The notes below the pieces were generated by a model. It did not search any database and had not been told where the DNA came from. It saw only the letters and a list, made by a program, of their open reading frames with translations. Positions 4,860 to 15,772 of a stretch of 64,000 bases of DNA are shown here, piece by piece. The stretch comes from Actinoallomurus soli. Lineage in GTDB: Bacteria; Actinomycetota; Actinomycetes; Streptosporangiales; Streptosporangiaceae. Positions within the stretch are counted from its first letter, which is position 1; each line of letters starts with the position of its first letter. A program made the translations under genes and the position numbers. The DNA lies in NCBI RefSeq assembly GCF_024055715.1, contig NZ_JAMXMV010000003.1, positions 310,001 to 374,000 of the forward strand, given 5' to 3'.

Positions 4860-5690
4860 TCACGGGAGGGTGCCGATGATGACCGTCGCGTCGGTCTCCT
4901 CGCAGGTCGCCACGCGGGCGGACAGGCCGGCGCGCGCGACGACCTCCAGCGCGGACGGAACCTGGCGGTCGCTGGTCTCGAAGAACAGGTGACCGCCCGG
5001 GGCCAGCCACGCCGGCGCCTCCGCGGTCACGCGGCGGGCGATGTCCAGACCGTCGGCGCCGCCGTCGAGCGCGACACGCGCCTCGTGGTCGCGGGCCTCG
5101 GCGGGCAGCAGGGAAACCTCTCCCGTGGGGACGTACGGGACGTTGGCCAGGAGGACGTCGACACGACCGCGCAGCGTCGCGGGCAGCGGTTCGTACAGGT
5201 CGCCCTCGTACACCCGGCCGCCGACGGCCGCGAGGTTGCGACGGGCGCAGGCGACGGCCGCCGGATCGATGTCGGCGGCGTACACCTCGGCTCCACACGT
5301 CTCGGCTCCGCGTGTCCCGGTGGCGTCTAGTGCCTCCGTGCCGGCGAGCAGCGTGGCCAGCGCGGTGCTCAAGGCGCCTGAGCCGCAGCACAGGTCGAGG
5401 ATCACCGCGCCCGGGCGGGTGAAGGCGGCGGCCTGGTGGACGAGGAACTCGGTGCGGCGTCTCGGCACGAACACGCCCGCATCGACCGCGACGCGCAGCC
5501 CGCAGAACTCTGCCCAGCCGAGGACGTGCTCGAGCGGCAGGCCGGCGACGCGCCGGTCCACCATGGCGGCGAGGTCACCGGGCGTACGCGCCGTGTCCAG
5601 CAGCAGCCGGGCCTCGTCCTCGGCGAAGACACAGCCGGCGGCCCGGAGACGGGCGACGATCGCGGCGGGGGAAGGGGAGAAGGTCGACAT
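4860..5690 (-). CDS. PrmC/HemK-related class I methyltransferase
   Basis: 276-residue SAM-dependent methyltransferase similar to protein-(glutamine-N5) methyltransferases. The N-terminal helical region resembles PrmC and includes GLPLEHVLGWAEFCG and the FVPRRRTE segment. SAM motif I is VILDLCCGSGALSTAL (about 95-110) and the acidic ribose-binding strand is VYAADIDPAAVACAR. The catalytic NPPY of true PrmC is replaced by ANVPYVPT, as in the actinobacterial PrmC-related branch of unknown substrate, so release-factor methylation should not be assumed. It stands alone, convergent to the ATPase gene, with a poor ribosome binding site. Confidence 0.8.
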   Translation of the reverse strand: MSTFSPSPAAIVARLRAAGCVFAEDEARLLLDTARTPGDLAAMVDRRVAGLPLEHVLGWAEFCGLRVAVDAGVFVPRRRTEFLVHQAAAFTRPGAVILDLCCGSGALSTALATLLAGTEALDATGTRGAETCGAEVYAADIDPAAVACARRNLAAVGGRVYEGDLYEPLPATLRGRVDVLLANVPYVPTGEVSLLPAEARDHEARVALDGGADGLDIARRVTAEAPAWLAPGGHLFFETSDRQVPSALEVVARAGLSARVATCEETDATVIIGTLP

Positions 5691-5835
5691 GAGAGGACGA
5701 CAACCCTACTAGTGCCTGCCTCAACGACAGCTCAGTGCTGCCGGTGGTCGATCGCGCAGAACGTAGGCGGCCGACCGCCCTGGCTGCCCCGGTCCTTGCG
5801 GCGCCGGATCTGGTCGGCCCCGTGAGGACCCGGGC

Positions 5836-6395
5836 TCAGCCTTCGCGGAGCACGGACACGAGTGTCGGACCGACCGAACGGGAAGCGAAAGATCCCACCA
5901 GAGACCCATTCGTCGCGGTGCCACAGTCGGTGCGGATGGACACAACCAGCCTGGGCGCCGCAGGGAAACTCGAAATCAGGAATACCTGCGACCGAGAAGC
6001 CACCTCAGGACACCCGTGATCGCCCGGCAGTATAGGCGATCTCATCAGAGTCGCTATACGATCGATATGACGCACGGAGATTGATACATCTGCATTCAGC
6101 TCGACATTGTCGGCGCTGTGATCACTCGCAACGTAGAAGCAGGCTCGAAGCGCGCTGGGATCTCCGGAGAACATCCGCTTTCATCCAGCTTACGGTATTC
6201 ATCGTCCCGATTCAGGCGTCCGACCGCAGGCGGGACCGAGGGACACTTCACCACTCCGGACCCATGCGCTCGAATCACGAGGCCCGCTTGTACAGCGGCG
6301 ATGACCACCCCAACTAAGATCATGACCGGCACGACTGCGCGGCGAACAGCGAACCGACGTGATTCTCTGCAGAATTCGGCGAGGTGACCAGACAT
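5836..6395 (-). pseudogene. membrane-anchored or exported protein gene split by a one-base frameshift
   Basis: Two minus-strand reading frames overlap. The first (6395 to 6096) gives a basic N-terminus and one hydrophobic segment (VVPVMILVGVVIAAVQAGLVI, about residues 21-41). The second (open from 6174 down to 5836) gives FSGDPSALRACFYV, a CPEV motif, RTDCGTATNGSL and VGPTLVSVL, a pattern seen in small actinomycete exported proteins. Adding one A to the AAA run at 6179-6181 (ttt on the plus strand) joins them into one 186-residue protein reading KLDEKRMFSGDPSALR at the junction. Either the gene is newly broken or the run was miscalled in the assembly. Function unknown. Confidence 0.6.
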
Positions 6396-6577
6396 AACCG
6401 CTTTATTCTACCTTGCATGCGTCCCGAATCGTGCGCTCGCCGAAGGTGGGAACGGCGGAGCACATAGGCCATGTCGGCTGCGTTCGTGACGAGAAGTAGA
6501 AAGTATGCAATGGCCAGCGCCTTGCAGCCTGTTCGACGTGCTTCTGAATCGCAACTTCGACGAAGGCGGACGCCCGG

Positions 6578-7219
6578 CTATGCGGTTCGCGGCTCGCCGA
6601 GGCCGTCGGCCGGCTCTGGCGGTTCGGTCGGTCCGGCCGGGGGCGCCAAGGCGGGGCCTGCGGCCAGGGCCGTCCGCAGCGACTCCAGGGCGTCCAGGGC
6701 GATCTCGAACAGGGGGCGTTCGTCGTCTCGGTCCAGCCACTCGTCGAGTGCCACGGTGAGCACGGTGACGCCGGTGTCGGCGAGCACGGCCGCGGTCATC
6801 GGGGCCAGGCCGCGGCGCACGAAGCCGTCCCGGATCGCCTCCCGCATGACGGCACGCTTGCGCAGGTCGCGCTCGCGCAGGCCGTCGTCGGACCGGACGA
6901 TGGCGCGCAGCCGCCGAATCTCGTCCCGCCGCCCGTCGAACAGGGTCTCGGCCACGGCGCGGACGCCCTCCAGGAGCACCGTCACCGGGTCCATCGACGC
7001 CGGCGCGTCGGCCAGCATCCGGGCGGCCATCTGGGAGAACTCGTCTTCGGCGAACAGCACCTCGCGCTTGTCGGCGAAGTGGCGGAAGAAGGTTCGGGTG
7101 GTCAGGCCCGCCCGGGCGGTGATCTCCGGCACGGTCGTCGCGGCGAATCCCTGCTCGGCGAACAGCTCCAGCGCCGCCCGCTGTAGGCGCTCACGCGCGT
7201 CCGGCCGCCATCTGCTCAT
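6578..7219 (-). CDS. TetR-family transcriptional regulator
   Basis: 213 residues. The N-terminal helix-turn-helix is canonical: RLQRAALELFAEQGFAATTV, then EITARAGLTTRTFFRHFADKREVLF (residues about 10-58), with the TetR-typical FFRHFADK recognition end. The C-terminal ligand domain is helical and unrecognised. There is no clear Shine-Dalgarno, and TAGACT on the minus strand (7226-7231) lies six bases from the ATG, so the transcript may be leaderless. It is divergent from the oxidoreductase at 7315-8415, with a palindromic operator pair between them. The simplest model is a local repressor of itself and that enzyme. Confidence 0.9.
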   Translation of the reverse strand: MSRWRPDARERLQRAALELFAEQGFAATTVPEITARAGLTTRTFFRHFADKREVLFAEDEFSQMAARMLADAPASMDPVTVLLEGVRAVAETLFDGRRDEIRRLRAIVRSDDGLRERDLRKRAVMREAIRDGFVRRGLAPMTAAVLADTGVTVLTVALDEWLDRDDERPLFEIALDALESLRTALAAGPALAPPAGPTEPPEPADGLGEPRTA

Positions 7220-7232
7220 GGGACCAGTCTAA

Positions 7233-7287
7233 GTGATGACATGTCGTGTCATCATCGGGCTACCGTGATGACACGACATGTCATCAC
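7233..7287. promoter_or_regulatory. paired palindromic operator between tetR and the reductase
   Basis: Two boxes, 7233-7255 and 7265-7287, are each an imperfect palindrome with arms GATGACA and TGTCATC. The second box is the reverse complement of the first at 22 of 23 positions, with nine bases between. The element sits 14 bp upstream of the tetR start and 28 bp upstream of the reductase start, where a TetR dimer pair could block both promoters. Binding is inferred from position and symmetry. Confidence 0.75.
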
Positions 7288-7314
7288 TCTGGTGACGGTG
7301 GAGAGGAGCACGAC

Positions 7315-8415
7315 GTGGGTGGCGAGGTCTGGATCCTGGGCGGCAGCGGCCGCAGCGGCCAAGCGATCGCGGCGGAGCTGGCGCGCCGGGGCGTGGCACC
7401 GGTGCTGGTCGGCCGGAACGCCGAGCGGCTGGCCGCCGCGGCGGCGCGGGTCGACGGCGCGCGTACGGTGGCCGCAGGCTCGGTCGAGGCGATGGTCGAC
7501 GAGATCCACCGGCAGGAACCGGCCGTGGTGGTCAACACGGTCGGGCCGTTCACCGCGACCGCGCCGCCGGTCACGCGCGCCTGCCTGGCCGTCGGCGACT
7601 ACGTCGACCTGGCCAACGACGTGGCCGCGGTGACCGGCGTGCTCGGCCTGCACGAGGCGGCGTCGGCCGCGGGACGATGCCTGGTGACCGGGGCCGGGTT
7701 CGGCGTCACGGCCACCGAGAGCGTGGTGGTCCACCTGTGCGCGGGCCGTCCGGCGCCGGTGCGGGTAAGGGTCGACATGGTGCCCTCGATGGACATGGCC
7801 GCCGGGCAAGTCGGCGAGGCGCTCGCCGCCACCCTCGTCGAGGGCATCCCTGGCGTCGAGGGCGGCCGCCGGTACGGAGGTCGCCGTTACCGGGACGGCC
7901 GGCTCGCACCGGCACCCATCGGCGGTGAACCGGCCCACCTCGTACTCCCCGACGGCGAGCGGGTCACCACCGCGAGCGTCCCGCTCGGCGAGTTGGTCGC
8001 GGCCCAGCGGGCCAGCGGGGCGCCCGACGTCGTCGCCGCGTCCAGCGAGGCACCCTCCTCGCCGCTGATGCGCGCGGTCCTGCCGGCGGCCACCTCGCTG
8101 CTGGCCAGCACCCGGATACGGGACTTCGCCCGGCGCCGACTGGCCCGAGTGCAGGTCAAGGCCCGCCCGCGGCCACGCCCGCACTCCTGGGGACACGCGC
8201 GCCTGGAGTGGGCCGACGGCACCGTCCAGGAGGGCTGGCTGCGCGTCGGTGAGGCGCAGGAGTTCACCGGTACGGTCCCGGCCGAGGTGGTGCGCCGCCT
8301 GCTGTCGGGCGAAGGCCGGCCCGGCGCGTACACGCCGGCCGCCCTGTTCGGCCCCTCACTGGCCGAGGCGTGCGGCGGAACGTACCTGGCGGCCACCGCG
8401 CCGACCGCTTCGTGA
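7315..8415 (+). CDS. saccharopine dehydrogenase-like NAD(P)-dependent oxidoreductase
   Basis: 366 residues from GTG 7315, preceded by a strong GAGAGGAG; an ORF start at 7246 lies inside the operator and is rejected. The N-terminal Rossmann motif is WILGGSGRSGQAIAAELARRG (about 5-25), then VNTVGPFTATAPPVTRAC and GDYVDLAND, typical of saccharopine-reductase-like and trans-acting enoyl-reductase-like proteins in actinobacteria. VTGAGFGVTATESVVVHL follows. Substrate cannot be deduced. The gene is divergent from the TetR regulator and probably controlled by it, which suggests induction by a small molecule. Confidence 0.8.
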   Translation: MGGEVWILGGSGRSGQAIAAELARRGVAPVLVGRNAERLAAAAARVDGARTVAAGSVEAMVDEIHRQEPAVVVNTVGPFTATAPPVTRACLAVGDYVDLANDVAAVTGVLGLHEAASAAGRCLVTGAGFGVTATESVVVHLCAGRPAPVRVRVDMVPSMDMAAGQVGEALAATLVEGIPGVEGGRRYGGRRYRDGRLAPAPIGGEPAHLVLPDGERVTTASVPLGELVAAQRASGAPDVVAASSEAPSSPLMRAVLPAATSLLASTRIRDFARRRLARVQVKARPRPRPHSWGHARLEWADGTVQEGWLRVGEAQEFTGTVPAEVVRRLLSGEGRPGAYTPAALFGPSLAEACGGTYLAATAPTAS

Positions 8416-8447
8416 GGTTCCCCGCCACGGCCACCTGACCGGCCTGC

Positions 8448-9422
8448 TCACCCCTGAAGGCGCCTGCCGATCCTCAGATCGTCACTCGCCTCGGACCGGT
8501 CGGCCGGTGGGGGTTCGAGCGGCCGGTCGGCGGGGGGCTCGGGATCGGCGGCCGGTCTGCCCTGGCCGATGAACTGGACGGCGAGCGCGGCGAAGACGAT
8601 CGCCATGCCGGTCAGCTGGTGCGCGGCGAGCCGGTCGTCGAGGAACGTGACGCCGATGACGACCGCGACGACGGGGAGCAGGTAGAAGGCCAGTCCCGCC
8701 TGGACCGGGCCGATGGAGGCGATGAGCCAGTAGTTGATGCCGAAGGCCACGGCGGTGCCGATGCCCATGAGGAGGAGGGACACGGTCACGCCCGCCGTCA
8801 GGTGCAGCGGCCGGGTGACCTCCGGCGCGGACACCACCAGCATGACCAGCCCGGCCGACAGGGCCTGGGTGGTGGCGAGGGTGAGCTTGGAATAGCCCAG
8901 GTGGTCGATCAGGTGCCGGGCGTAGGTGTAGGCCAGGGCGTAGCAGGCTGCGCCGCCCAGGCAGGCGAGCTGGCCGGTGAGGGAGGAGCCGCCGGTGCCC
9001 CGCCACGGGGCGAGCACCACGAACAGGCCCGCGAAGCCGATCGCGGAGGCCACGACCTCGATCCGGCTGCTGCGGCTGCGGAGGATCAGCCAGACGGCCG
9101 GAATGGTCATCAGGGGCGTGGCGCCGCTGTAGATGCCGGCCAGGCTGCTGGTGACGCTCTCCTGTCCCCAGGCGAACAGGAGCCAGGGCACGGCCTGGCC
9201 GAGCAGGCCCATGCCGGTCAGCCGCAGCCACACGCCCGGCCGCCGGGGAAGCGGGGTCCGGGTCGCGAGCGAACAGGCGAGCAGCAGCAGCCCGCCCAGC
9301 CAGAGACGGGCCAGCACGATCTGCGCGGGGTCGGATCCGTGCAGGGCCTCCTCGACCAGGAGGAAGTTGGTGCCCCAGATGACCGCGAGTGCGGTCAGGC
9401 CGACGACGCTGAGGACACGCAC
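8448..9422 (-). CDS. EamA/DMT-family transporter
   Basis: 324 residues with about ten hydrophobic segments in two related halves, the drug/metabolite transporter fold. Examples are VVGLTALAVIWGTNFLLVEEAL at the N-terminus, SLAGIYSGATPLMTIPAVWLIL mid-protein and AGLAFYLLPVVAVVIGVTFL near the end. The C-terminal tail is polar. Its start lies 28 bases inside the upstream gene (9395-10441), so translation is coupled to the two diiron-type enzymes. In this setting it is the natural candidate exporter of the product of the peptide/enzyme operon; DMT proteins also export amino acids and other metabolites, so this is inference. Confidence 0.85.
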   Translation of the reverse strand: MRVLSVVGLTALAVIWGTNFLLVEEALHGSDPAQIVLARLWLGGLLLLACSLATRTPLPRRPGVWLRLTGMGLLGQAVPWLLFAWGQESVTSSLAGIYSGATPLMTIPAVWLILRSRSSRIEVVASAIGFAGLFVVLAPWRGTGGSSLTGQLACLGGAACYALAYTYARHLIDHLGYSKLTLATTQALSAGLVMLVVSAPEVTRPLHLTAGVTVSLLLMGIGTAVAFGINYWLIASIGPVQAGLAFYLLPVVAVVIGVTFLDDRLAAHQLTGMAIVFAALAVQFIGQGRPAADPEPPADRPLEPPPADRSEASDDLRIGRRLQG

Positions 9423-10441
9423 GTCAGTGCCTTACCGGCGGCGGACGGGTAGGACCCCGCGGTGAGGTCGCGCAGGCTCGCGCGGCCGTACCAGGCGATG
9501 ATCTCTCCGTCGAGGCGGGCGCGCTGCTCGAGGATGTCGGTGACGGCGGCGGCGCATTCGCGGACCTCCTCCAAGCCGACGAAGGGCAGCTCGGCGAGCA
9601 GTTCGAGGGTGACCGCCTCGTGGTCCTCGTCCTCGTTGACGCCGGAGTGCGCGACGATCGGCCCGGTGAACTCCCCGGGCAGGCCGAGCTCCTCGCAGCG
9701 CCGTACGAACAGCTCCAGGAACTCCGGCTCCGGCTCCTCCATCGGGAACAGCGTGGCGAACAGCGCCGCCGGGAACTCGTAGGCGTACACGCCCAGCGCG
9801 GCCATGAGCGCCATCGTCGCCGGGAGCGGCTGCACGCGCCGCAGCACCTCCCGTGAGACGCCCACGGCCTGCAGGGACTTCTCCAGCAGCCGGTCGTGGT
9901 TGCGTTCCATCTGGTAGAAGGCCATGGTCTTGGCCCAGGCGGTCGGGCTGATGTCGTCGCGGGCCAGCACCGGGGCGAGGGCGCGCGGGCACAGGTGGGT
10001 GATGTGCCAGTACTCGACGGCGTAGCCGATGAGCTGGTCGCGGGTCACCTCACCGGCGGCCAGGGCCTGCACGAAGGGGCTGTGCAGCCGGGCGCGGACG
10101 GCGTCGGCGTTGCGCTTGAGCCGCCCGTACGCGGCGACGCCGGACAGTCCTTCGGCGGAGGCGGTGGCCGACTCGGTCAGCATGCCCTGCTCGTCGAGGG
10201 CGGCCAGCAGCTCGTCGAGTTCGTCCGCCGTTCCGGGGAAGACCTCGGCCAGGTCCGCGGCGCTCCGTCCGCCCTCCTGGAGGAGCTTCAGGAAGCGCTG
10301 CTCGGCGTCTCCGCCGTGGAGGAAGTCGAGTTCGAGCCAGCGGCGGTCGCCGAGGTAGCGCAGCGTGGCTCCGGCGTCGCCCGCCTCGATCCGCACCTGC
10401 GGGCGGAGCGCCGGCCGCTCGAAGAGACGATGTCCGCTCAT
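9395..10441 (-). CDS. heme-oxygenase-like diiron enzyme with N-terminal winged-helix-like domain (second of pair)
   Basis: 348 residues; the start at 10441 (MSGHRLFERP) overlaps the upstream stop as ATGA, and the longer open frame upstream is a shadow. Residues 10-90 are strands followed by helices (LEQGG-type turn, ADLAEVF, LLAALDEQGML), like PqqD/RiPP-recognition or wHTH domains. Residues 100-310 form a helical heme-oxygenase-like domain with candidate iron ligands E143, H146/H149 (EYWHITH), E179 and H182 (ERNHD), H265 and H274 (AHSG, EDEDH). Family knowledge (iron-containing redox/HDO enzymes such as UndA, SznF, BesC) suggests O2-dependent oxidation or C-C/C-N cleavage. The substrate is unknown; the neighbouring peptide is the leading candidate. 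Confidence 0.72.
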   Translation of the reverse strand: MSGHRLFERPALRPQVRIEAGDAGATLRYLGDRRWLELDFLHGGDAEQRFLKLLQEGGRSAADLAEVFPGTADELDELLAALDEQGMLTESATASAEGLSGVAAYGRLKRNADAVRARLHSPFVQALAAGEVTRDQLIGYAVEYWHITHLCPRALAPVLARDDISPTAWAKTMAFYQMERNHDRLLEKSLQAVGVSREVLRRVQPLPATMALMAALGVYAYEFPAALFATLFPMEEPEPEFLELFVRRCEELGLPGEFTGPIVAHSGVNEDEDHEAVTLELLAELPFVGLEEVRECAAAVTDILEQRARLDGEIIAWYGRASLRDLTAGSYPSAAGKALTCVSSASSA

Positions 10442-11475
10442 CTGCCGTCCCCTTCGTACGCCGGCCGCAGCAGGGGGCGTGCCGGGTCGCCGTAGTAGTC
10501 GAGAATCCCGTTGAAGAACGCGGCGTACGCCTCGACGAACAGGTGGGCCTTGCCGATCAGCCGCGCCTCGGTGGCGGCGTCGAGACCCGGCAGCCGGGAG
10601 AACAGCTCCCTGCTGACGCTGCCGTGGTCGTGCGCGGCGTTGATCTTGGCGTGCATGCGGAGCGGCTCGACGAACTCGGGATCGAGGTCGGCCTTTCCGC
10701 AGGCCTCCAGGAACGAGTCGTACGCGGCGTTCTCCGCGTCGCCCTCGCTGTTCAAACGCCCTTCGAGAACGCCGATGGTCGCCATGAAGAACAGCGGGTC
10801 GGTCCGTGCCCACCAGGAGAGCATCCTGATGAGCGCGGTGGTGGTCGGCAACGGGCGGGACCGCAGCAGGTCGTCCTTCGTTATCCCCAGGCAGGAGAAC
10901 GCCCGTACGACGATATCGTCGTGTTTATGCTCTTCCTGGTAGAACTCGTTCGCCAGGGTACGGAGTCCCGCGTTCTGCGGCAGCGCGAGAATGGCCGAGT
11001 CGAATTCGTTCTCATGGAAGAGGAAGAACCAGTTCTCCAGCCCGAAGCCGTGGAAGACGCTGGGCGGAAGGGACTCGGGACGCCGCACGACCGCCTGCCA
11101 GAACGGCCCGTCGAAGATCAGCTCCTCCATGAGCTCGTTCAGCACGTGCTCGACGTCGGCGAGCACGGCGAGGGGGTGGCGTCCCACGGCCGGAGCACCC
11201 TCGTCGAGGAGGCCCGCGACCTGCGCGGGGACCAGGACGTCGCGGAGGGTCCCCTCGGGCACCTCGGTCCGCGCCGCGATCTCCGTGAGGGGTGTCCCGC
11301 CGTCCAGGCGGCCCAGCACGGCCGCGAGCTGCTCGACGGTGAGGCCCTCGGCCGGTTCGACGTCGAAGGTCTCGGTCGCGGTGCGCAGCTCGATCGCGTC
11401 GCCCACTCGACGGTGTTCGGCGAGGAGCAGCGGTCTTTCCGGGACGATCCTGCCGTCGCCGTGCTGTTCGTTCAT
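10438..11475 (-). CDS. heme-oxygenase-like diiron enzyme with N-terminal winged-helix-like domain (first of pair)
   Basis: 345 residues, divergent paralogue of the next gene with the same layout. Residues 15-92 are a beta/wHTH-like segment (DAIELRTATETFDVE, then LTVEQLAAVLGRLDGG, LTEIAART, VLVPAQVAGLLDEG). Residues 105-330 are a helical HDO-type core with candidate ligands E147 (GLENW), E181/H185 (EEHKHDD), E238 (GVLEGR), H275 and H282-D283-H284 (HAKINAAHDHG). AAGGA precedes the ATG at good spacing. The gene follows the 17-residue peptide by 79 bases containing a hairpin and is coupled to 9395-10441. Two HDO paralogues in one operon imply two steps or a heterodimer; neither can be chosen from sequence. 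Confidence 0.72.
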   Translation of the reverse strand: MNEQHGDGRIVPERPLLLAEHRRVGDAIELRTATETFDVEPAEGLTVEQLAAVLGRLDGGTPLTEIAARTEVPEGTLRDVLVPAQVAGLLDEGAPAVGRHPLAVLADVEHVLNELMEELIFDGPFWQAVVRRPESLPPSVFHGFGLENWFFLFHENEFDSAILALPQNAGLRTLANEFYQEEHKHDDIVVRAFSCLGITKDDLLRSRPLPTTTALIRMLSWWARTDPLFFMATIGVLEGRLNSEGDAENAAYDSFLEACGKADLDPEFVEPLRMHAKINAAHDHGSVSRELFSRLPGLDAATEARLIGKAHLFVEAYAAFFNGILDYYGDPARPLLRPAYEGDGR

Positions 11476-11510
11476 GTCCGGTTCCTTCGCGAAAGGTCGC
11501 CGACGAACGC

Positions 11511-11545
11511 CGGGCCGCGGCGGAATCCCGCCACGACCCGGCCCG
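11511..11545 (-). terminator. hairpin between the peptide gene and the enzyme genes
   Basis: CGGGCCG (11511-11517) pairs with CGGCCCG (11539-11545), with an inner stem GGCGG (11519-11523) and CCGCC (11528-11532) closing a four-base loop. It has no T tract. Its place directly after a tiny gene and before the enzymes is that of a partial terminator or processing site, which in RiPP operons raises precursor mRNA relative to enzyme mRNA. Confidence 0.5.
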
Positions 11546-11554
11546 TGTTCTGGA

Positions 11555-11608
11555 TCAAAGGTGCACGCCGGAAAGGGCGACGACCTTCGAGCGGCGCTTG
11601 ATCTTCAT
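11555..11608 (-). CDS. 17-residue peptide, candidate modified-peptide precursor
   Basis: Encodes MKIKRRSKVVALSGVHL. Too short for ordinary gene finding, but GAAGGGA lies eight bases before the ATG and the gene heads an operon of two HDO-type enzymes and an exporter. The N-terminal half is strongly basic (five of residues 2-8 are K or R) and the C-terminal half neutral (VVALSGVHL), which could be a minimal leader and core. There is no Cys, only two Ser (S7 and S13) and no Thr, so lanthipeptide or azole chemistry is unlikely; oxidation at His, Leu, Val or a C-terminal residue would suit iron enzymes. Alternatively it is a leader peptide for attenuation. Whether it is translated is unproven. Confidence 0.5.
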   Translation of the reverse strand: MKIKRRSKVVALSGVHL

Positions 11609-11754
11609 GCGACCATCCCTTCGTGCGACGGACCGGATACGGCCGCCCGGTTTCAGACGGCTTTGATCAACAAAACATGCCGGGCTTGCGAACGTCAACA
11701 CTCGCGGAAAAGTCGGCCCAAAGCCCTCCTTTAGGTCCCGCCGGAATAGAAGCG

Positions 11755-11911
11755 TCCATCAAAGGTGAGGCTTCTCTCACCGGATGGATCCCTCCGGCTG
11801 ACGTAGGCCGGTTGCGTCAGGCAGGGGAGGGCTTTCCGCCCTGGCGAGGCGACGATCGATGGTGTCAATCGACCTCGGCAGGATCTCGTCCCCTCCGAGC
11901 CTCCCCTGCCT
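11755..11911 (+). promoter_or_regulatory. highly structured 5' leader of the polysaccharide operon
   Basis: Three successive stem elements lie just before the GT2 gene. TCCATC (11755-11760) and GGTGAG (11764-11769) pair with CTCACC (11776-11781) and GATGGA (11783-11788). CTGACG (11798-11803) pairs with CGTCAG (11815-11820). A perfect 12-bp long-range stem joins AGGCAGGGGAGG (11819-11830) to CCTCCCCTGCCT (11900-11911), ending 16 bases before the ATG. The 69-base enclosed loop has further pairing potential (GAGG/CCTC, CGAT/ATCG). It resembles a riboswitch or attenuator, but I do not recognise the consensus of the c-di-AMP, c-di-GMP, TPP, cobalamin or ZTP classes. The rest of 11609-11927 shows no gene. 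Confidence 0.5.
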
Positions 11912-11927
11912 AACCGGGGGCACCACC

Positions 11928-12779
11928 ATGCACGAGCCGGAATTCCTCCACGGCGCCGGCGTCCGACCCGGCGCGCTCCTGCATCATCGCGACCACCATC
12001 GCGACGTCGCGCGGCACCGCGCGACCCGACCGACCGTGACGGCCGTCATCCCCACCCTCAACGAGGCCGACAACCTCCGTTGGCTGCTGCCCCGCCTGTC
12101 CGGGGTCGACGAGGTCATCGTCGTCGACGGGGAGTCGGCGGACGGCACCGCCGACGTGGCGCGGCGGCTGCGGCCGGACGCCGTCGTCATCAGCCAGCCG
12201 CCCGCCGGGAAGGGCGCGGCGATGCGCGCCGGCTTCCAGGCCGCCACCAGCGACGTCATCGTCGCCATCGACGCCGACGGCAGCATGGACCCGAGGGAGA
12301 TCGACGCGTTCGTCGCATTGATCTGCTGTGGGTTCGACGTCGTCAAGGGTTCGCGCTACTGCGTGGGCGGCGGCTCCGACGACCTCACGCTGCTGCGGCG
12401 AGCCGGGAACCTCTGGCTGACCAGGCTCGCCAACGTGCTGTACCGGGTGCGCTGGACCGACCTGTGCTACGGGTACATCGCGCTGCGCCGCTCCGTCGTG
12501 GACCGGCTGGGCCTGGCCGCCGACGGGTTCGAGATCGAGACGGAGCTGTGCGTCAACGCCGTCACGACCGGGCTGCGCATCGCCGAGCTGCCCAGTCACG
12601 AGCTCGACCGCAGGTCCGGCGTCTCAAAGCTGAACGCCGGGCGGGACGGCCTGCGGGTGCTGCGCACGATGATCCGGGGCCGCCGGGGACCCGCGAACCG
12701 GGCCCGGCCGCGACCGCGGACCGCCCTCGCCCCGGAGCGCGCGGCCCTGGAGCAGGTCCTGGAGGAGGCGCGCGGGTGA
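11928..12779 (+). CDS. GT2 family glycosyltransferase
   Basis: 283 residues. A GT-A fold begins after a 35-residue His/Arg-rich N-terminus: VTAVIPTLNEADNLRWLLP, VDEVIVVDGESADGT, then the DXD-like IVAIDADGSMDPREID. The pattern is that of dolichyl-phosphate-mannose/undecaprenyl-phosphate-sugar synthases (DPM-like), without C-terminal membrane segments. Expected activity is transfer of a sugar from a nucleotide donor to a lipid or polysaccharide acceptor at the inner membrane face. It is the first gene of a six-gene coupled operon (11928-19766) behind a structured leader; its stop overlaps the GTG of the next gene. Confidence 0.85.
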   Translation: MHEPEFLHGAGVRPGALLHHRDHHRDVARHRATRPTVTAVIPTLNEADNLRWLLPRLSGVDEVIVVDGESADGTADVARRLRPDAVVISQPPAGKGAAMRAGFQAATSDVIVAIDADGSMDPREIDAFVALICCGFDVVKGSRYCVGGGSDDLTLLRRAGNLWLTRLANVLYRVRWTDLCYGYIALRRSVVDRLGLAADGFEIETELCVNAVTTGLRIAELPSHELDRRSGVSKLNAGRDGLRVLRTMIRGRRGPANRARPRPRTALAPERAALEQVLEEARG

Positions 12780-14062
12780 GGTTCGACATCGCGCGCCCGG
12801 ACGAGCTCGGGGAAGCGGAGCTGGCGCGCTGGCGCGCGCTCCAGTACGCCGGCCCGCCCCTCGGCGCCCCCGGCCGGGCCCCCGACGGCCCCAGCCCGGT
12901 CTCTGCCGGGCCGGTCGCGACCGCTCCGGTCTCTGGCGGGCCGGTCCCCACCAGCCCGATCCCCGGCGGCCCGGCCCTGGGCAACCCGTTCCTCGCGCCG
13001 GAGTTCACGCTGGCCGTGGGCCGGTTCCGGGCCGGCGCGCGGGTGGCCGTGCTGAGCGACGGCACCGGGATCGCGGGCTTCTTCCCGTACGAACGGCACG
13101 CGCTCGGGCTGGGCCGTCCGATCGGCGCCGGGCTGACCGACTGCCAGGGCCTCATCGGCCCGCCGGACCTGGAGTTCGACGTACGGGCGCTGCTGCGCGC
13201 CTGCCGCCTGTCGGTGTGGGAGTTCGACCACCTGCTCGCCGACCAGGCGGCGTTCGCGCCGTTCCACGCCGAGACCCGCGTCGAGCCGGTGATGGACCTG
13301 CGCGCGGGCTTCGCCGCGTACGCGGAGGAGGTTCGGAAGCGGTCGCCGAAGACGCTGAAGACGGTTCGGTACAAGGAGCGCAAGCTCGGCCGCGAGGCCG
13401 GTGAGGTGACCTACACGTTCGACGAGCGGGACCCGGCGGAGTTGCGGCGGCTGATGGCATGGAAGTCCGCCCAGTACCGCCGGACCGGCCGCACCGACCG
13501 GTTCGCCGTGCCCTGGATCGTGGCGCTCGTCGAGCACCTGCACGAGACCGGCGCCGGGGTGCTCAGCGTGCTGCGCGCCGGAGGCCGTCCCGTCTCCGCG
13601 CACCTGGGACTGCGGGCGGGCCCGGTCATGGCGGGCTGGTTTCCCGCGTACGACGTCGACTTCGGACGGTACTCCCCCGGCATGATCGGTCACCTCCGGA
13701 TGGCGGAGGCGGCGGCCGGCGCCGGGATCGGCTGGATCGCGATGGGCCGGGGCGGCCGGGAGTACAAGGACTGGCTGAAGAACGCCGAGTTCGGCATCGC
13801 CGAGGGCCGCGCCGCCCGGGTGTCGGCCGCCGCCGGGCTGCACTGGGTCCGCGAGGCCCCGGTCCGCCGGGCGCGCAGCGCCGTGCTGGCGCACCCGGCA
13901 CTGTACGCGGGCGCGGACCGGGTGCTGCGGACGTACGCCCGGCTGCGCCCGAAGGGCCGCGCGGCCGGGCGTACCGCGTCCGTGGACGGGGCGGCCGGCC
14001 ACGCCACCGCCGGAGAAGGGGCGGCCGGGCGCGCCGCGGTCCGGGAAGGGGACGCGGCGTGA
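12776..14062 (+). CDS. GNAT/FemAB-like acyltransferase (CelD/BcsL type)
   Basis: 428 residues starting at GTG 12776, which overlaps the preceding stop as GTGA. The C-terminal half has the double-GNAT acyltransferase pattern found in polysaccharide operons: FAAYAEEVRKRSPKTLKTVRYKERKL, AELRRLMAWKSAQYRRTGRTD, then VLRAGGRPVSAHLGLRAGPVMAGWFPAYD and the SPGMIGHLRMAEAAAGAG segment. It probably adds an acyl group to a sugar or amino sugar of the polymer. Residues 30-70 contain a P/G/V-rich degenerate repeat (GPVSAGPVATAPVSGGPVP) and the tail is A/G/R-rich; both look like in-frame expansions. Donor and acceptor are unknown. Confidence 0.75.
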   Translation: MRFDIARPDELGEAELARWRALQYAGPPLGAPGRAPDGPSPVSAGPVATAPVSGGPVPTSPIPGGPALGNPFLAPEFTLAVGRFRAGARVAVLSDGTGIAGFFPYERHALGLGRPIGAGLTDCQGLIGPPDLEFDVRALLRACRLSVWEFDHLLADQAAFAPFHAETRVEPVMDLRAGFAAYAEEVRKRSPKTLKTVRYKERKLGREAGEVTYTFDERDPAELRRLMAWKSAQYRRTGRTDRFAVPWIVALVEHLHETGAGVLSVLRAGGRPVSAHLGLRAGPVMAGWFPAYDVDFGRYSPGMIGHLRMAEAAAGAGIGWIAMGRGGREYKDWLKNAEFGIAEGRAARVSAAAGLHWVREAPVRRARSAVLAHPALYAGADRVLRTYARLRPKGRAAGRTASVDGAAGHATAGEGAAGRAAVREGDAA

Positions 14063-15006
14063 GGATCTCCGTGGTCATCTGTGCCTACACCGAGCGGCGA
14101 TGGGACGACGTCCTGGCCGCCGTCGCCTCCGTACGGGCGCAGCGGCTCGCGCCCTCGGAGATCATCCTCGTCGTCGACCACAACGCGGCGCTGCTGGACC
14201 GCCTGCGGGCCGCGCTGCCGGACGTCCGGGTGATCCCCAACGCCGGGCCGCGCGGCCTGTCCGGCGGCAAGAACACGGGCGTGGCGGCGGCGCGCGGCGA
14301 CGTGGTCGCGTTCCTCGACGACGACGCGGTCGCCCACGCCGACTGGCTGTCCGTGCTCGCCGCCGGGTACGCGGACCCGGACGTCGCCGGGGTCGGCGGC
14401 CGTACGCTGCCACTCTGGCCGTCCGACGCGCCCCGCTGGTTCCCCGAGGAGTTCGCGTGGGTGGTCGGCTGCACGTACCGCGGAATGGCCGCCGGCCCGA
14501 TCCGGAACCTCATGGGCGGCAACGCCTCGTTCCGGCGCGCGGCGTTCGAGGTCGCCGGGGGCTTCCGCAGCGGCATCGGGCGGGCCCCCGGCAAACGGCC
14601 GCTGGGCTGCGAGGAGACCGAATTCTGCATCCGGCTGCGCCAGGCCGCGCCGGAGACGGTGCTGCTGTTCGACGACCGCGCCGTGATCTGGCACCGCGTG
14701 CCCGGCGAGCGCGCGCGCTTCGCGTACTTCCGCACCCGCTGCTACGCCGAGGGACTGTCGAAGGCGATGGTCACCCGGAGCGTGGGCGTCGGGGACGGGC
14801 TGGCCAGCGAACGCCGGCACGCCCTCATCGAACTGCCGCGCGGCGTCGGGCGCGGGCTGCGCGCCGCGGTCACCGGCGACCCGGCCGGGCTCGGGCGCGC
14901 GGCGGCGATCGTGGCCGGGCTCGCCTTCACGATGTCCGGGTACGCGGCCGGGTCCCTCAGACTCCCCGGATACGCCGCCGGCTCCCTCCGGAGGTCCCAT
15001 GGGTGA
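14059..15006 (+). CDS. GT2 family glycosyltransferase
   Basis: 315 residues from GTG 14059 (GTGA overlap). The GT-A motifs are clear: ISVVICAYTERRWDDVLAAV, EIILVVDHNAALLDRL, the acceptor-side GLSGGKNTGVAAARGDVVA and the DXD motif FLDDDAVAHADWL, followed by GGNASFRRAAFEVAGGF and CEETEFCIRLRQ (the ED acceptor-binding motif). It resembles rhamnosyl- and galactofuranosyl-transferase-like enzymes of the cell surface, but the sugar cannot be assigned. The C-terminus repeats GYAAGSLR twice over about 20 residues, a short duplication. It overlaps the deacetylase gene by eight bases. Confidence 0.85.
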   Translation: MRISVVICAYTERRWDDVLAAVASVRAQRLAPSEIILVVDHNAALLDRLRAALPDVRVIPNAGPRGLSGGKNTGVAAARGDVVAFLDDDAVAHADWLSVLAAGYADPDVAGVGGRTLPLWPSDAPRWFPEEFAWVVGCTYRGMAAGPIRNLMGGNASFRRAAFEVAGGFRSGIGRAPGKRPLGCEETEFCIRLRQAAPETVLLFDDRAVIWHRVPGERARFAYFRTRCYAEGLSKAMVTRSVGVGDGLASERRHALIELPRGVGRGLRAAVTGDPAGLGRAAAIVAGLAFTMSGYAAGSLRLPGYAAGSLRRSHG

Positions 15007-15772
15007 CGACCCGACTGCTCCCGTCCCGATCCTGATGTACCACTCCATCGGCGGATCGGACCGGCTCGCGGTCCGCCCGGAGGCGTTCGCCGAGCAGCTC
15101 GCCCACCTGCGGGACAACGACTTCACGCCGATCACCTTCGGCGAGCTGTCGGCGGGCGGCCCGGCGCCCGGCCGTCCGGTGGTGATCACGTTCGACGACG
15201 GGTACGCCGACTTCCACGAGCGGGCGCTGCCGCTGCTGGAGAAGTTCGGCTTCCGCGCGACGGTGTTCGTCACCACCGGCTGGATCCGGGACGCCGGGCC
15301 GTACGCCGCCGGACGGCCGCTCGGGCCGACGCTCAGCTGGAGCCAGGTCGCGGAGATCGCGAGCTGCGGGATCGAGGTCGGCGGGCACGGCCACAGTCAC
15401 GCCCAGCTCGACCAGCTCCGCGACGCGGTGCTGCGCACGGAACTGCTGCGCAGCAGGCGGCTCCTGGAGGACCGGGTCGGCCGCGCCGTCACGACGATGG
15501 CCTACCCGTACGGCTACTCCAGCGCGCGGGTGCGCCGGGAGGTGCGGGCGGCGGGGTACCACGCGGCGTGCGCGGTCGCGAACGCCCTCGCGCCCGGGGA
15601 CGGCGACCGGCTGGCCGTGCCGCGCGTGACCGTACGGGCCGGCACGTCGCTCGCGGGATTCGAACGGGCGCTGCACGGCCGCGGATTCCTCGCCGACCAC
15701 GCGCTGACCAAGGGATACGCGCTCCTGCGCCGGTCCCGCTACGCCGTACGACGCCTCCGAGGAACCGTGTGA
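14999..15772 (+). CDS. polysaccharide deacetylase (CE4 family)
   Basis: 257 residues. The NodB homology region shows PILMYHSIGG near the N-terminus, the metal/catalytic motif VITFDDGYADF (about residues 61-71), GFRATVFVTTGWI, the zinc-binding HGHSHAQLDQL (about 129-139) and AYPYGYSSARVRREVRAAGY. These enzymes remove N-acetyl groups from amino-sugar polymers. There is no signal peptide, so it may act inside the cell on a lipid-linked intermediate. Within the operon it implies a GlcNAc-like residue in the polymer. The ATG at 14999 lies inside the upstream gene, so translation is coupled. Confidence 0.87.
   Translation: MGDDPTAPVPILMYHSIGGSDRLAVRPEAFAEQLAHLRDNDFTPITFGELSAGGPAPGRPVVITFDDGYADFHERALPLLEKFGFRATVFVTTGWIRDAGPYAAGRPLGPTLSWSQVAEIASCGIEVGGHGHSHAQLDQLRDAVLRTELLRSRRLLEDRVGRAVTTMAYPYGYSSARVRREVRAAGYHAACAVANALAPGDGDRLAVPRVTVRAGTSLAGFERALHGRGFLADHALTKGYALLRRSRYAVRRLRGTV

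Follow-up and report, generated by a model that had tools for sequence, protein, structure and literature searches.

A minus-strand operon in a 64,000-nucleotide stretch of the Actinoallomurus soli genome (contig NZ_JAMXMV010000003.1, positions 310,001 to 374,000; hereafter the window) encodes a 17-residue peptide, two predicted heme-oxygenase-like dimetal oxidases (HDOs; E1 and E2) and an EamA-family exporter. We consider it probable that this operon serves a pathway for a ribosomally synthesized and post-translationally modified peptide (RiPP), in which HDOs fused to RiPP recognition element (RRE)-like domains would oxidize the C-terminal Leu (or His) of the peptide and a small product would be exported. 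What sequences and models show directly is a conserved peptide, a pair of enzymes conserved with it, an HDO fold with its ligand positions, RRE-like domains and an exporter. Distant bacteria share this arrangement, which therefore appears to be an uncharacterised route from a ribosomal peptide to a small natural product. A preceding sequence-only reading had located the peptide, E1, E2 and EamA genes and described two paralogous heme-oxygenase-like enzymes coupled through ATGA; we confirmed its coordinates on the minus strand, found E1 and E2 to be paralogues of 27% identity and placed the ATGA overlap at 10441, the start of E2.

Among 100 related genomes, E1 matched in four at E 1e-3, strongly only in its own genome and in genome G074, and these two were also the only ones to match at 1e-10 among 394 genomes of the class. 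Scanning an 84,980-species collection with an alignment of two E1 proteins yielded 31 loci, from Actinomadura, Saccharothrix, Streptosporangium, Sphingomonas, Tistrella, Burkholderia, Paraburkholderia, Chromobacterium, Dyella, Photorhabdus, Chimaeribacter, Vibrio, Pseudomonas and three metagenome-assembled genomes (MAGs). With plasmids of Rhodococcus gordoniae (L043) and Robbsia andropogonis (L044), G074 and the window, this gave a set of 35 loci chosen by E1 alone, the peptide not being used. The loci are not independent samples: Chromobacterium haemolyticum is represented by two strains, and several of the Sphingomonas, Burkholderia and Paraburkholderia loci are nearly identical. Further relatives probably exist, because the scan requires exact short patterns; no E2 relative was found in phage records. 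In Robbsia, the set is carried on a 124-kb plasmid with transposase genes beside it.

A short open reading frame (ORF) ending in His-Leu lies upstream of the enzyme genes in all 35 loci with an E1 homologue (34 recovered by script, G074 by inspection), so that a candidate precursor gene is conserved with the enzymes, as expected of a RiPP pathway. As background, His-Leu was counted at 23 of 9057 other ORF ends of these loci, and 23 of their 2721 other 420-bp windows contain an ORF ending in it. The comparison of 35/35 with 23/9057 led us to reject a chance ORF as the origin of the peptide. HDO pairs without a conserved upstream peptide, which the sequence-only reading had named as evidence against itself, did not appear: besides the His-Leu ORF in every locus, Leu at position -6 is found in 26 of 27 distinct peptides. 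Across these 27 (26 when the first residue is ignored, the peptide start codons being our choice), His at -2 and Leu at -1 are present in 27/27, although the codons for both differ between peptides, and Pro at -8 in 24/27. The residue before His varies (L025 ends ..PMHL, L037 ..PHHL), and sequence outside His-Leu differs widely between lineages.

Peptides of 17 residues occur in the window, in L011-L014 and in Rhodococcus (for example, MRIKRRAKVTALSAVHL and MTITKKKRTIVAVAVHL). The G074 peptide has 35 residues, and its stop lies 2232 bp before E1 with two other genes between. Proteobacterial peptides comprise either 20-39 residues (..KPRNPRPVLVPVHL) or 55-60 (..DGRPTLIAIHL); the 55-60-residue forms, from Dyella, Burkholderia, Paraburkholderia and Sphingomonas, retain N-terminal TVHEVK and DLYINT stretches. 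Over the last nine codons, synonymous versus non-synonymous changes in five groups numbered 45/15, 100/15, 46/4, 20/5 and 20/4 (pairs summed within group), and the last 12 codons of seven long peptides gave 94 versus 22. Synonymous changes thus dominate the last codons, which indicates that selection acts on the amino acids. The sequence-only reading had assigned a binding role to the basic end of the peptide; that N-terminal end is unconserved across the family, and the C-terminal His-Leu is the conserved part. Its ranking of a 17-residue precursor among the smallest was also too strong, since 17 residues are no record and biarylitide precursors have five (PMC13417212, available portion). The peptide gene is unlisted in the annotation of the L043 and L044 records, the two inspected (PLSDB gene tables are incomplete). 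In L030 (Sphingomonas), ~80 bp before E1, ATC stands at the usual position of the peptide ATG; neighbours L031 and L039 have ATG.

E2 directly neighbours E1 in 34 of the 35 loci; the contig of L036 breaks off after E1. One of the 34 is a fusion: Tistrella mobilis pTM3 (L041) encodes E1-E2 as a single protein of 691 aa, with a thiamine diphosphate (ThDP) enzyme gene between peptide and enzymes. Pairwise identities of E1 and E2 correlate (r 0.91; 19 chosen loci of 35), and in a midpoint-rooted tree of the same 19 loci E1, E2 and a third HDO, E3, are each monophyletic. E3 (~500 aa) is present in 26/35 loci; an E3 search of the window's own genome returned the E1 gene as the sole match. Against PF03070 (TenA/PqqC), E1 scores 25.3 bits and passes the cut-off of 22; against PF14518 (iron-containing redox enzyme), it scores 22.9 bits, below the cut-off of 28.9. 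E2 exceeds the cut-offs of both. AlphaFold2 models built from 25 E1 and 22 E2 sequences (mean predicted local distance difference test scores of 87.8 for E1 and 85.9 for E2) show a heme-oxygenase fold from residue ~100 onward in both enzymes, and structure comparison assigned it to the HDO fold.

The E1 profile matches the mangotoxin acetylenase MboA at E 1.2e-4, in an alignment confined to the HDO part of E1. The metal ligands of MboA, H89, H172, H181, E86, E143 and D176 (PMC13185094), align with E1 H185, H275, H284, E182, E238 and N279. The corresponding E2 positions are E179, H182, E235, H265, N269 and H274. Conservation is 33/34 for E1 H185 and 34/34 for the other E1 positions, 34/34 throughout E2 and 26/26 in E3. 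By alignment, all 94 enzymes (E1, E2 and E3 together) have Asn in place of MboA Asp176 and, apart from the one E1 without H185, would keep three His and two Glu of the six HDO ligands. Two Burkholderia loci (L017 and L040) contain an extra HDO-like gene of 365 aa, on the minus strand, divergent and ~0.8-2.1 kb before E1.

Ahead of the HDO fold, the models of E1 and E2 show strands and then three helices over residues ~10-95. In hhalign comparisons, these domains matched PqqD at 95.2% over 77 columns (E1) and 92.7% over 78 (E2), strands included. MarR reached 87.1% and 44.7%, respectively, over 36-37 columns, and IclR 94.3% over 48 columns with E1 and 6.2% over 35 with E2; column-shuffled controls gave at most 0.9% for PqqD and 2.6% overall. 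The profile sets used 26 of 30 fetched loci for PqqD (25 kept), 29 of 30 for MarR and 27 of 30 for IclR (25 kept). From these profiles and models we conclude that the N-terminal domains of E1 and E2 are, by prediction, RRE-like. The PqqD/RRE resemblance proposed in the sequence-only reading therefore held up, as a full-length match; that reading would have been undercut by domains matching only DNA-binding or unrelated folds, and PqqD aligns over the strands too, with MarR and IclR limited to 35-48 columns. The N-terminal domain of E3 matches those of E1 (94.6%) and E2 (97.0%). A structure search with the whole-enzyme model gave a list filled by the heme-oxygenase domain, with no PqqD-only chain among the matches listed. 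In L025 (MAG), E2 (5833-6681) is open for 283 aa only, and its N-terminal domain is therefore missing or broken.

We infer from these features that the peptide is a substrate, and for the modified residue, its chemistry, the release step and the product we propose the following. The 17-residue peptide would be made ribosomally and held by the RRE-like domains of E1 and E2, so that the invariant His-Leu could enter the HDO sites. The substrate carboxylate binds Fe1 in MboA, as in AetD, UndA, HrmI and PolF (PMC13185094, available portion), and this binding, together with the invariant C-terminal residue, leads us to propose oxidation of Leu (or the adjacent His) in the HDO sites. If the chemistry follows that of MboA, the C-terminal Leu would bind one iron through its carboxylate, and O2-dependent C-H activation would oxidize, most likely desaturate, the side chain of Leu or of the neighbouring His. 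E1 and E2 may act sequentially or as a pair. A peptidase encoded outside the operon would then set free a small product, either a modified amino acid or a short peptide, which would leave via EamA.

Neighbouring genes in relatives are consistent with such a product. EamA is found in 12/35 loci, the window included, a GNAT acetyltransferase in 17/35, a class III aminotransferase in 13/35, an adjoining GMC oxidoreductase in 5/35, an ATP-grasp ligase in 4/35, a major facilitator superfamily (MFS) transporter in 4/35, with a fifth (L025) by clustering, and a ThDP enzyme in 2/35. Names were taken from single representatives or, for Rhodococcus, from its record, and the counts are lower bounds because several contigs end early. 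A small amine-bearing product would suit the exporter, acetyltransferase, aminotransferase and ligase genes; we infer it from the ligase, exporter and acetyltransferase together. Of the accessory genes seen in relatives, the window operon has the exporter only. The acetyltransferase 3' of EamA in L011-L014 had no match in the window's own genome, a search that shows little as it had no positive control. No YcaO or TfuA was found among the seven window proteins or ten relatives' proteins scanned.

Several observations weigh against the RiPP proposal. No modification of the peptide has been seen to date, and the window operon contains no peptidase. In the long peptides, the leader part has 251 synonymous versus 308 non-synonymous changes, with no synonymous excess, so that it is, judged from codon changes, less constrained than the C-terminal end. 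In the Photorhabdus locus L028, E1 carries Tyr in place of H185 and E3 is absent, and this locus may be decaying; another E1 has Gln at the E147 position. The IclR score of the E1 domain is close to that for PqqD, though over the helix-turn-helix only, and the N-terminal domain of E3 reaches 4.3% against PqqD. The Pfam PqqD model PF05402 matched 0/25 E1 and 0/22 E2 sequences at E up to 1, and had no match in the window's own genome. Finally, a regulatory leader would be expected to have a strong hairpin after it, and the peptide gene does.

Such a leader would act in cis by arrest or attenuation: pausing at the His-Leu-stop would set hairpin folding and E1/E2 expression, and the enzymes would use a free metabolite. 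The peptide precedes the enzyme genes in every locus, even where other genes intervene (G074 and Tistrella), and its conserved residues lie directly at the stop codon. The window hairpin was stronger than dinucleotide shuffles, as were 22 of 32 spacer hairpins (60 shuffles each; 3 of the 35 loci left out). A T run follows few of them (for example, L034), whereas most, the window's included, have none, and no Rfam family matched 11300-11950. Two terminator-like sites were predicted in 8300-12000 (shuffles gave 1.5), neither of them at the hairpin; a sigma-70-type scan of the same interval found no promoter-like site. Hairpins between RiPP precursor genes and their enzymes are known to raise precursor levels, and this one may be a partial terminator, an mRNA stabiliser or an attenuator. 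A leader would leave the PqqD-like domains on both enzymes unexplained, as it would the N-terminal stretches retained in the 55-60-residue forms. Because of these domains and long forms we favour a substrate role for the peptide and regard a leader as unlikely.

The same peptide and enzyme evidence would also fit a RiPP pathway that yields the modified peptide, intact or trimmed, instead of a small C-terminal fragment, and a cut site is not apparent from sequence. EamA and MFS are families of small-metabolite carriers. The exporters belong to one or the other, no peptide ABC transporter or leader peptidase was found among the operon genes scanned, and His-Leu stays constant while the remainder of the peptide differs between lineages; we give a peptide product little credence. 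A reading in which the short ORF arose by chance and both enzymes simply begin with DNA-binding winged helices, as the IclR and MarR scores of the E1 domain over the helix-turn-helix might suggest, is strongly disfavoured and seems barely credible given a peptide retained in 35/35 loci, an E2 domain that matches PqqD far better than MarR or IclR, and strands that PqqD alone covers.

Features of the operon are collected in Table 1. GAAGGG, a ribosome-binding-type stretch, lies ~9 bases before the peptide ATG, 79 bases separate the peptide gene from E1, and EamA starts at a GTG (9422) within the last codons of E2. The operon lies between two plus-strand genes, one for a glycosyltransferase (11859-12779) and one that is saccharopine-dehydrogenase-like (7246-8415). 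The glycosyltransferase, assigned by Pfam, opens a plus-strand run (11859-15772) with, by eye, acyltransferase-, second glycosyltransferase- and polysaccharide deacetylase-like ORFs, perhaps a surface-polysaccharide cluster. On the minus strand, 4860-5690 encodes a PrmC-related putative protein N5-glutamine methyltransferase (TIGR03704, 399 bits, above cut-off).

Table 1 Features of the candidate RiPP operon, in window coordinates
Feature	Coordinates	Strand	Basis or remark
Candidate precursor peptide MKIKRRSKVVALSGVHL, 17 residues	11555..11608	-	ATG at 11608, TGA ending 11555; C-terminal His-Leu family-invariant
Hairpin between peptide gene and E1	11509..11542	-	Best hairpin ~-36 kcal/mol
E1, RRE-like N-terminal domain and HDO domain, 345 aa	10438..11475	-	Pfam, AlphaFold2 model, hhalign, ligand alignment
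PqqD/RRE-like domain of E1 (residues 1-95), strands leading into three helices	11191..11475	-	AlphaFold2, hhalign
E2, RRE-like N-terminal domain and HDO domain, 348 aa	9395..10441	-	Pfam, AlphaFold2 model, hhalign, ligand alignment
E2 residues 1-92, PqqD/RRE-like domain	10166..10441	-	AlphaFold2, hhalign
EamA-family (drug/metabolite transporter, DMT) exporter	8448..9422	-	Pfam PF00892; homologue at the same place in L011-L014

HDOs perform striking O2 chemistry, and with one 17-residue peptide and two enzymes the system would be small enough for convenient reconstitution. For genome mining, a handle is offered by an ORF that ends in His-Leu before an RRE-HDO pair, which tends to escape annotation, and the family could lead to new amino-acid-type natural products. 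More tentatively, we suggest a RiPP class spanning Actinomycetota and Pseudomonadota whose only core enzymes would be RRE-fused HDOs that carry Asn, unusually, in a metal-ligand position. In it, a disposable ribosomal peptide might serve as carrier for its C-terminal Leu, and conversion of this residue would give a non-proteinogenic amino acid that is new and either unsaturated or cyclized. The cell would export this amino acid, and some lineages would also transaminate it and build it into small peptides by ligation.

In the natural fusion of PqqC and PqqD, PqqD comes after PqqC, and PqqC works without a metal. This fusion (PDB 5vrc/5vrd) resembles E1 and E2 in joining a heme-oxygenase-like fold to a peptide-binding PqqD domain in a ribosomal-peptide pathway; in E1 and E2, by contrast, the PqqD-like domain is N-terminal and the ligands of a dimetal site would, Asn for Asp apart, be kept. 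CADD, a self-sacrificing p-aminobenzoate synthase that ranks with the top sequence matches of E2 (E 8e-7), is an HDO as well and derives a small molecule from a residue carried by a protein (PMC11965152; this and the following papers are cited from their available portions). It consumes its own Tyr, whereas E1 and E2 have a separate peptide gene and RRE-like domains. MboA, which desaturates Cbeta-Cgamma of the C-terminal Arg of a tripeptide, shares its ligand positions with E1 and likewise acts on the C-terminal residue of a peptide, but its substrate is ligase-made and ends in Arg, it has a separate redox partner, MboB, and it has Asp176 where E1, E2 and E3 have Asn (PMC13185094). Some relatives with His-Leu peptides may be in the lists of that study, because 1447 HDO sequences near ATP-grasp genes were counted there.

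In the open-licence literature, with subscription literature mostly outside our scope, we found no description of HDO pairs with RRE domains and His-Leu peptides. HDO action in a RiPP pathway is itself already known from VarO, proposed to put a double bond into an Arg side chain in the thiovarsolin pathway (PMC6511847), and VarO is the sole ribosomal-peptide HDO case cited in the available portion of a 2026 HDO review (PMC13108848). YcaO-TfuA clusters of Sinorhizobium contain heme-oxygenase-like genes as well (PMC8120280), and in the literature examined an HDO link to ribosomal peptides was found only for YcaO-TfuA clusters (PMC6511847, PMC8120280). VarO thus resembles E1 and E2 as an HDO within a RiPP pathway, and its clusters also hold ATP-grasp ligase and MFS genes; in thiovarsolin, however, YcaO-TfuA thioamidation provides the core chemistry, with VarO as a single tailoring enzyme (PMC6511847), whereas the only modifying enzymes of the window operon are paired HDOs with RRE-like domains, and its peptide ends in His-Leu.

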